49,450 bases of DNA from positions 1-49,450 of the forward strand of contig CALDZP010000024.1 of NCBI GenBank assembly GCA_937944105.1, read 5' to 3'. The number at the start of each line of letters is the position of its first letter. Position 1 is the first letter of the stretch. Both the position numbers and the translations under genes were made by a program. Source of the stretch: an uncultured Ignavibacteria bacterium (GTDB taxonomy: Bacteria > Bacteroidota > Ignavibacteria > Ch128b). Under the pieces are notes generated by a model. It was not told the origin of the DNA and ran no database searches. It was given only the letters and a program-made list of their open reading frames with translations. Of the stretch, positions 6,821-7,614 are shown in pieces.

Positions 6821-6978
6821 AATTTTTCAGATCAGTTTTTAGATTATAAATATTTTGATTACTTGACGAAACGTATTATTAAATTGTTATTTCCCCGTGT
6901 TAGTCCACAATCAAATTTAATCATAAAATTTTTTTGATTGAATTCCTGAATGTATGTTCATTTTTAAATTCTGAAATA

Positions 6979-7053
6979 AAAAAAGCTCATAATTGTCTGA
7001 GCTCTTGGTTGCAGGGCCGACGACCCCCTGCGTGACAACAATTGATCAATTTT
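6979..7053 (-). repeat. Degenerate tRNA-Asp 3'-end copy with its terminator (distal copy)
   Basis: Read on the minus strand, this is TCACGCAGGGGGTCG fused directly to TCGGCCCTGCA (7010-7034), then the same GCTCA...TGAGC terminator hairpin (6984-7003) that follows the genuine tRNA-Asp gene at 7541-7614. The T-arm is deleted and several bases differ, so it cannot fold as a tRNA. It also shares the ACAATTGATCAATTT linker (7036-7050) with the region next to the real gene. The structure implies duplication of the tRNA 3' half plus downstream sequence. Confidence 0.75.
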
Positions 7054-7063
7054 TCGATCCCGA

Positions 7064-7115
7064 AATAAAAAAGCTCAGAATTGTCTGAGCTCTCGATTGC
7101 GGGGCCGACGAGACT
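7064..7115 (-). repeat. Second tRNA-Asp 3'-end copy with terminator, downstream of the GIY-YIG gene
   Basis: On the minus strand the copy reads AGTCTCGTCGGCCCCGCA, identical to the 3' end of the intact tRNA-Asp. It is followed by the terminator hairpin GAGCTCAGACAATTCTGAGC and a T-run, also identical to the tRNA terminator. The upstream half of this pseudo-tRNA is the 36-bp direct repeat at 7114-7149, where the T-arm is replaced by another hairpin. The terminator may serve the GIY-YIG gene. Confidence 0.75.
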
Positions 7116-7149
7116 TCCCGAATTTTATTCGGGACGACCTCCTGCGTGA
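7114..7149 (-). repeat. 36-bp direct repeat, copy 1 (overlaps the GIY-YIG stop)
   Basis: A perfect 36-bp match to 7441-7476, with a 327-bp offset. On the minus strand it consists of TCACGCAGGAGGTCG, which equals the anticodon-stem to variable-loop part of tRNA-Asp, then a hairpin TCCCGAATAAAATTCGGGA (7116-7134), then AG. It encodes the last residues, HAGGRPE, and the stop codon of the GIY-YIG protein. Confidence 0.9.
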
Positions 7150-7388
7150 TTTAAAAGTTCTTCTATATATTTCCTGCTTTTTTTTCTCTTTATCTCCCTT
7201 TCCCTTCTTAATGCTTCTGTTTTAGTTGCATAAGTTTCATAATATACTAACTTCCACGGTATACCTCTCTTCGTATATTTCCCCCATCCTTGATTATGTC
7301 TTTCCAATCTCCATTGAAGATCATCCTCTGTAACCCCAGTGTAATACCTATCAAGTCGTTTTGAATATATAATATACATGTGCCACAT
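7125..7388 (-). CDS. Small GIY-YIG endonuclease-like protein inside a tRNA-derived repeat array
   Basis: Single-domain GIY-YIG protein of 87 aa, of the UvrC N-terminal/YhbQ-like superfamily. Visible motifs are MYIIYSK with YYTGVT (the GIY...YIG pair), Arg in WRLERHN, and a conserved Glu region near RREREIKRKK. Family members cleave DNA with a metal-dependent active site; the target here is unknown. Start choice between Met1 and Met4 is uncertain and no strong Shine-Dalgarno is seen. The last seven codons (HAGGRPE) and stop lie in a 36-bp repeat derived from tRNA-Asp, and an identical repeat sits 52 bp upstream of the start. The ORF thus looks like cargo of a tiny tRNA-associated element rather than a housekeeping gene (inference). 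Confidence 0.8.
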   Translation of the reverse strand: MWHMYIIYSKRLDRYYTGVTEDDLQWRLERHNQGWGKYTKRGIPWKLVYYETYATKTEALRREREIKRKKSRKYIEELLNHAGGRPE

Positions 7389-7440
7389 AAATTACATAAA
7401 CATTTCTTTTTTAGTCTTTCTTTTCTTAGAGTTAACAAAT

Positions 7441-7476
7441 CTTCCCGAATTTTATTCGGGACGACCTCCTGCGTGA
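7441..7476 (-). repeat. 36-bp direct repeat, copy 2 (upstream of the GIY-YIG gene)
   Basis: Identical to 7114-7149, including the tRNA-Asp-derived TCACGCAGGAGGTCG and the CCCGAAT/ATTCGGG hairpin (7443-7461). Together the two copies bracket the GIY-YIG gene. The linker on its tRNA side contains ATTGATCAATT, also found beside the distal tRNA fragment. Confidence 0.9.
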
Positions 7477-7504
7477 CAACAATTGATCAATTTTTCAATC
7501 CCAA

Positions 7505-7533
7505 AATAAAAAAGCTCAGAATTGTCTGAGCTC
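7505..7533 (-). terminator. Rho-independent terminator of tRNA-Asp
   Basis: On the minus strand, GAGCTCAGACAATTCTGAGC followed by TTTTTTATTTT lies immediately 3' of the tRNA. Near-identical hairpins recur at 7064-7093 and 6984-7003 as part of the duplicated tRNA ends. Confidence 0.85.
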
Positions 7534-7540
7534 TCGATTG

Positions 7541-7614
7541 CGGGGCCGACGAGACTCGAACTCGCGACCTCCTGCGTGACAGGCAGGCGTTCTAACCAAC
7601 TGAACTACGACCCC
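7541..7614 (-). tRNA. tRNA-Asp (anticodon GTC)
   Basis: The 74-nt cloverleaf begins GGGGTCG and closes with CGGCCCC plus discriminator G. The D-loop region is AGTTCAGTTGGTTAGA, the anticodon stem-loop CCTGC-CTGTCAC-GCAGG gives anticodon GTC, and the T-arm is GCGAGTTCGAGTCTCG. The terminal CCA is not fully encoded (CAA follows). Its 3' half has been duplicated twice downstream, one copy flanking a GIY-YIG gene. Confidence 0.97.

Follow-up and report, generated by a model that had tools for sequence, protein, structure and literature searches.

Well-studied GIY-YIG enzymes act on DNA, and synthetic gene drives of the cleave-and-rescue or home-and-rescue type aim a nuclease at an essential gene and supply a rescue copy of it. 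In fungal mitochondria, mORFs form gene hybrids, in atp6, atp9, cox2 and nad3 of Glomus and in atp6 of Allomyces (PMC3630166). The mORF endonuclease (GIY-YIG in Glomus atp9) lies in an essential gene and brings a replacement end, the native end being found beyond the ORF (PMC3630166). Such a mORF of fungal mitochondria, which supplies a gene end of foreign origin, is the nearest precedent for the elements described here (PMC3630166). The tRNA fragments that arise from integrative elements at tRNA genes have been reviewed (PMC9897764), and a survey of the GIY-YIG superfamily (PMC1564403) makes no mention of elements such as the present ones. In the open-access literature, to which the search was confined, no bacterial description was found, the only precedents being fungal.

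The stretch of DNA analysed, here called the window, is 49,450 nt of a contig from an uncultured Ignavibacteria bacterium (CALDZP010000024.1). It contains a tRNA-Asp locus that probably belongs to a widespread family of minimal mobile elements, namely, solo homing-type GIY-YIG genes at essential RNA genes, with a rescue copy of the target carried or spared and with cleavage of the target presumed. The features of the locus are as follows.

7540..7614, minus strand: intact tRNA-Asp(GTC), putative target and surviving or rescue copy (ARAGORN; 75/75 identity to the empty-site tRNA-Asp of a member of the same genus)
7504..7532, minus strand: terminator-like hairpin and T-run 3' of the intact tRNA (sequence; repeat family D1)
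7482..7492, no strand assigned: linker ATTGATCAATT preceding the first tRNA fragment (sequence, repeat analysis)
7441..7478, minus strand: tRNA-Asp fragment (from the anticodon) and palindrome TCCCGAATAAAATTCGGGA (7443-7461), with one copy of the 36-bp repeat within
7125..7388, minus strand: GIY-YIG nuclease gene, 87 aa, its last codons in tRNA-derived and palindrome sequence (PF01541, E 1.3e-15)
7099..7149, minus strand: broken tRNA-Asp copy, consisting of the 3' part of the anticodon arm, a palindrome (7116-7134) that replaces part of the T arm, and the acceptor 3' strand, with the second copy of the 36-bp repeat inside
7066..7091, minus strand: terminator-like hairpin, second copy (sequence, repeats)
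7041..7051, no strand assigned: linker ATTGATCAATT, second copy (sequence, repeats)
7011..7037, minus strand: distal tRNA-Asp scar without T arm (sequence)
6980..7003, minus strand: terminator-like hairpin, third copy, diverged (sequence, repeats)

Read on the minus strand from 7614 down, the intact tRNA-Asp(GTC) is followed by a terminator-like hairpin, the linker, a palindrome-bearing tRNA-Asp fragment and the GIY-YIG gene. Beyond the gene come a second palindrome-bearing fragment, then the terminator and the linker again, and finally a third fragment with a third terminator. The direct repeats of the window comprise a segment made of the tRNA 3' end plus terminator, present in three copies (6955-7023, 7043-7111 and 7484-7552), and include a 97-nt pair of 97% identity and a perfect 36-bp pair (7114-7149 and 7441-7476). 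The preliminary description of this DNA had given the intact tRNA-Asp as 7541-7614, one base less than its extent; the repeated tRNA-Asp 3' ends with terminators that it reported are real, the linker is found at both places named, and the GIY-YIG gene does lie alone between perfect 36-bp repeats. Its derivation of these repeats from the tRNA holds for their anticodon-arm part, but about half of each is the palindrome, which is not tRNA. The tail of the gene, NHAGGRPE, also held to be tRNA-derived, begins in tRNA-Asp anticodon-arm sequence but then passes into the palindrome, stop codon included. The window unit of 327 bp contains no integrase, the GIY-YIG ORF being its sole gene, and no obvious integrase is present among the listed neighbours of the locus. 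The arrangement is far beyond chance, because the same arrangement recurs in dozens of genomes.

The window protein has the two features that define the GIY-YIG superfamily, the domain and the conserved catalytic residues. Y16, E63 and K67 are invariant in both family alignments, and R27 is invariant or nearly so. The AlphaFold2 model (mean pLDDT 91) is that of a bare GIY-YIG domain. Solved relatives by profile include UPF0213, SLX1 and I-TevI, and by fold comparison the model is closest to UPF0213 (1ZG2), then to SLX1, and then to I-TevI. The protein, at 87 residues, lacks a separate DNA-binding domain; a homing nuclease that recognises a specific sequence would usually have one, and this counts against a homing reading. 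The nuclease genes of the family are under purifying selection. The median dN/dS is 0.15 over 46 pairs, many of them within a single 8-copy array, the pairs being those with a computable ratio (a pair with saturated synonymous sites was left out).

PF01541 matches in the source genome are of two kinds, two long ORFs (L004 and L006), which were set aside from the solo set and which we would guess to be UvrC-like, and five solo pieces. The pieces amount to four loci, since the sequences of L001 (end of contig C23) and L007 (start of C91) overlap. Each of the four solo loci found here lies next to the 3' end of a tRNA. The genes follow tRNA-Ser(GCT), tRNA-Lys(TTT), tRNA-Asp and a tRNA 3' end matching tRNA-Ala, the last (L005) being a decayed, broken gene at a contig edge. 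At three of the four loci (Ser, Lys and Asp) a broken tRNA copy is visible downstream. The gene at the Lys locus ends within a tRNA-Lys that lacks the 5' end and has a different anticodon arm, and the broken copy at the Ser locus has a double hairpin in the T loop.

Scars that lack a nuclease gene are also present in the source genome (L272 on C33, L220/L287 on C1 and L231 on C28). The tRNA-Thr scars are tandem 5' copies in which a palindrome replaces the anticodon arm, and the tRNA-Pro scar is one of the 3' end, its palindrome following the T loop; both carry the same palindromes as the nuclease-bearing loci of that genome. Palindromes of the form TCCCGA..TCGGGA number 33 in the source genome versus 0 in the control. 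Seven of the 33 are in tRNA copies, and most others are central in a dispersed TCATTGCGAG..AAGCAATC repeat. This repeat with a palindrome centre occurs at about 20 places in the genome (e.g., L222-L227, L273-L275, L278 and L279), its centres varying from copy to copy.

Homologues were found in 42 of the 61 relatives searched and in 75 of the 118 genomes that sample the phylum. Copies per genome are many, and tandem arrays occur; the longest one seen has 8 copies with a period of about 364 bp and tRNA-Met remnants. In this array (L108, on contig C34 of G101) the units carry tRNA-Met 3' remnants and hairpins, and the 4.4 kb retrieved show no intact tRNA-Met. A scan of one genome per species, with a single protein as query, returned 72 loci in Bacteroidia, Cloacimonadota, Neomarinimicrobiota, many Patescibacteria, Omnitrophota, Verrucomicrobiota and others. 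The Bacteroidia isolates with loci include Muricauda, Allomuricauda and Mucilaginibacter. No relative was found in viral contigs with the single-protein query, and no homologue in phages or plasmids at E 1e-5, which counts against the mobile reading.

Association with tRNA genes was scored for 188 full-domain copies with at least 300 nt of flank on each side. A complete tRNA on the same strand lies within 260 nt of 124 copies, and a same-strand tRNA or tRNA fragment within 320 nt of 148; in one copy the tRNA is on the opposite strand only. For a random gene the expectation would be about half a percent, as estimated from about 45 tRNAs per genome. Chance adjacency is ruled out by the 148 same-strand cases versus one opposite. 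The copies without a nearby tRNA include inner copies of arrays and copies in 16S and 23S rRNA genes and RNase P RNA genes. One copy lies near tmRNA, which is perhaps a further target, and in about 14 of the 188 no target was recognised.

The target is kept across distant hosts, as in homing elements. Agreement in tRNA isotype with the nearest relative from another genus is seen in 65.5% of 168 cases, a figure that includes closely related orthologues, the match being required across genera only; the mean in 5000 permutations is 10.2% and the maximum 21%. When relatives are capped below 60% or 55% identity, the match is 52% or 46%, and with the cap at 50% it is 16%, inside the permutation range. 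On the tree, isotype changes number 53 versus 111 or more in 200 label shuffles.

Broken tRNA copies were detected in 111 of 134 elements, and two layouts can be distinguished. In layout A, that of the window (78 elements), the order is intact tRNA, gene and 3' broken copy, the broken copy being downstream. In layout B (33 elements), a 5' broken copy upstream is followed by the gene and the intact tRNA. An internal insert of at least 8 nt is present in 78 broken copies, and a perfect stem of at least 6 in 48 of these (versus 5% in shuffles); the other 30 have no stem of 6. The inserts are located in loops, and a GC-rich hairpin often interrupts or replaces the D, anticodon or T loop of the broken copy. 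In the T region 13 of 20 clean insertions are exactly 18 nt from the 3' end (TTC|GA). In the anticodon region 10 of 16 follow nt 35 or 36, and further ones are in the D loop. Layout A inserts are mostly in T or anticodon, those of layout B mostly in D or anticodon. The hairpin sequence varies among genomes, whereas the tRNA site is constant. In one locus (L094) the nuclease tail includes GYLPAGRQG, the translation of a palindrome that lies in the broken copy of tRNA-Arg, which suggests that such palindromes can enter reading frames.

Structural-RNA genes other than tRNA are also occupied. GIY-YIG ORFs are found inside RNase P RNA genes (L107, L099, L180 and L323-L325), where the ORF sits in the loop of an extended stem, in a region identified as P3 by sequence. 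In L107 and L180 a perfect inverted repeat of 20-24 nt surrounds the ORF. Within genus g57 the RNase P ORF is present in three species (G102, G159 and G111) and absent in the other five of eight. Insertions in rRNA genes of Patescibacteria are already known, and the relatives found here within 16S (L167, L181, L178, L186 and L191) and 23S (L201, L177 and L209) are mostly from that group. Inverted repeats of 23-34 nt enclose the ORF in the three rRNA loci examined (L167, L186 and L201). Group I and II introns were considered for the loci without a nearby tRNA and rejected, the Rfam intron matches (L201, L214 and L186) being only far from the ORF. At tRNA targets an intron is unlikely because an intact, uninterrupted tRNA is present.

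Empty sites are known for two tRNA targets. In G002, of the same genus as the window, a syntenic TrpB2 (82% identity) accompanies a tRNA-Asp identical in 75/75 positions, and this locus has neither a GIY-YIG gene nor tRNA copies. Beyond the tRNA-Asp, the DNA of G002 is unrelated to that of the window, so the exact ends of the insert are undefined at the window locus. In genus g57, the tRNA-Gly site is filled in G102, G142 and G111 and empty in G159, G081, G090, G160 and G115. The flanks of the filled G102 and the empty G159 are 94% identical upstream and 97% downstream. At the upstream side, G102 retains 26 nt identical to nt 1-26 of the native tRNA-Gly, followed by a hairpin and a remnant with an assembly gap (N runs lie inside the insert). 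Next come a complete tRNA-Gly and its terminator, and after them the nuclease gene and another remnant that bears a hairpin. The complete tRNA-Gly of G102 differs at 7 of 74 positions from the native tRNA, which is common to the seven other members (G159, G081, G090, G160, G115, G142 and G111). The working tRNA-Gly was thus replaced in G102, and not in the filled G142 or G111. Surviving tRNAs are often unchanged: the window tRNA-Asp equals the empty-site tRNA, and G142 and G111 keep the native tRNA-Gly. Divergence marks a foreign replacement for the tRNA-Gly of G102, but not for the window tRNA-Asp or for G142 and G111. A further property shared with homing elements is that a fixed target is occupied in some relatives and has empty alleles in others. 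Pure tandem duplication of the tRNA is insufficient, as it accounts for neither the hairpins nor the replaced tRNA-Gly.

How such elements might spread can be pictured as follows, where DNA cleavage, the cut position (taken as the hairpin site) and homing by recombination are what we infer. The nuclease would cut one tRNA gene at a specific site, and in the repair, templated by a chromosome that bears the element, the nuclease gene would be copied in along with tRNA sequence. The nuclease gene would then have a complete tRNA gene on one side and, on the other, a copy that is truncated and interrupted by a hairpin. Although the target is essential, the invasion would be tolerated, since the host keeps or receives a working tRNA. 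Further rounds of cutting, with misaligned repair, may lead to tandem arrays and nuclease-less scars, and the hairpin would block the broken copy only. The unchanged surviving tRNAs would then count against the homing reading, escape from re-cutting appearing to be its main difficulty. It is also possible, and here we stop a little short of favouring the idea, that the elements are natural cleave-and-rescue systems, which destroy an essential RNA gene (tRNA, RNase P RNA or rRNA) and supply a substitute, so that tRNAs are horizontally replaced, with hairpins that would mark the cut site of the broken copy and block it.

The preliminary description had proposed a minimal, integrase-free tRNA-targeting element, a proposal supported by recurrence, target fidelity and empty sites. 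Its view of the distal copies as scars agrees with the tandem arrays and nuclease-less scars. The insertion with target duplication that it envisaged is not a simple duplication, as the second copy is a broken tRNA, often with a hairpin in a loop. The mirror-image form, with the broken copy upstream, and the other structural-RNA targets go beyond it. Neither of the two patterns that it saw as speaking against mobility is the one found: rather than vertical conservation with no empty sites, the distribution is patchy and another member of the genus has an empty site, and rather than GIY-YIG ORFs lying elsewhere without tRNA-derived flanks, most relatives have such flanks.

Other explanations can be set against a mobile family. 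The genes could be housekeeping repair genes of the UPF0213/YhbQ kind that lie near convenient tRNA promoters or terminators, the tRNA fragments coming from unrelated integrase islands. The closest solved relatives are indeed UPF0213 proteins, and integrase-type islands probably do use tRNA-Asp in this class, as intact and partial copies lie 18 to 49 kb apart in G006 and G041. However, isotype fidelity, empty and filled sites, hairpins at precise loop positions, tandem arrays, multiple copies per genome, and RNase P and rRNA targets are all against this explanation, and the sequence between tRNA and fragment has no integrase at the window and G102 loci. Nor does the family have the conserved chromosomal position away from RNA genes that characterises UPF0213/YhbQ housekeeping genes, and we consider such an origin unlikely. 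The tRNA-Asp and its 3' fragment are 49 kb apart in G041 (contig C19) and 18 kb apart in G006 (contig C19); these pairs are perhaps ordinary islands inserted at an already occupied tRNA.

It is doubtful, too, that the hairpin is the mobile unit and that the nuclease mainly moves or processes palindromes, as in REP/RAYT or fungal double-hairpin elements, with tRNA loops as one landing site. A general palindrome mover would not be expected to give an isotype-specific tree, and the tRNA site is fixed while the hairpin differs between genomes. Yet this explanation would accommodate the excess of TCCCGA..TCGGGA palindromes over the control, with most non-tRNA ones in TCATTGCGAG..AAGCAATC centres, as well as the single and double hairpins exactly in loops, the position of RNase P and rRNA ORFs in the loop of a 20-34-nt inverted repeat, and the kinship with structure-specific SLX1 nucleases. 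A toxin-like or regulatory role, in which the nuclease acts on tRNA (RNA) at its loops and the hairpin copy serves as a decoy or processing signal, seems very improbable. The hairpins do lie in loops commonly attacked by tRNA nucleases, and the nuclease gene has the same orientation as the tRNA, with which it is probably co-transcribed. However, the activity of well-studied GIY-YIG enzymes is on DNA, the ORFs located within RNase P RNA and rRNA are better explained by insertion than by a decoy, and the empty and filled sites and the tRNA replacement require a DNA event.

If the mobile-family reading is true, these elements may rank among the smallest self-spreading bacterial elements (one gene of about 90 codons in 0.3-0.4 kb). 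They would explain a class of tRNA fragments unaccounted for by integrases, would show how essential and highly conserved genes can be exploited by a selfish nuclease, and would offer a route of horizontal replacement for tRNA genes. The reading is directly testable, because the elements recur in Bacteroidota, Cloacimonadota, Neomarinimicrobiota and Patescibacteria and their cut sites are predicted.

The family can be compared with several known systems. UPF0213/YhbQ proteins (PDB 1ZG2 and 1YWL) have the same fold and size and are the best sequence match, but are treated as cellular proteins of unknown role, and the descriptions found of them include no tRNA association, broken copy or hairpin. 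Tyrosine-integrase islands also use tRNA genes and leave one complete and one partial tRNA; unlike them, the present family shows no integrase, has a unit of about 0.3-0.4 kb, and leaves 5' as well as 3' fragments, with a hairpin in the broken copy. With I-TevI-like homing endonucleases the family has in common the GIY-YIG catalytic domain, target fidelity and a likely spread by break repair, but not a separate DNA-binding domain or an intron and splicing at tRNA targets, the target being rescued by a copy instead. In comparison with synthetic cleave-and-rescue drives, the elements are natural, bacterial and minute, and the rescue is recoded in one locus only. The likeness to mORFs lies in an ORF placed between a complete gene and a displaced end, as in the 78 elements of layout A and at the tRNA-Gly locus, and, at one locus, the tRNA-Gly of G102, in a replacement whose foreign origin is shown by divergence. 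While mORFs occupy protein genes of fungal mitochondria, the present family occupies tRNA and other structural-RNA genes of bacteria, and differs from them further in the hairpin in the broken copy, the two orientations, the tandem arrays and ORFs of about 90 aa.
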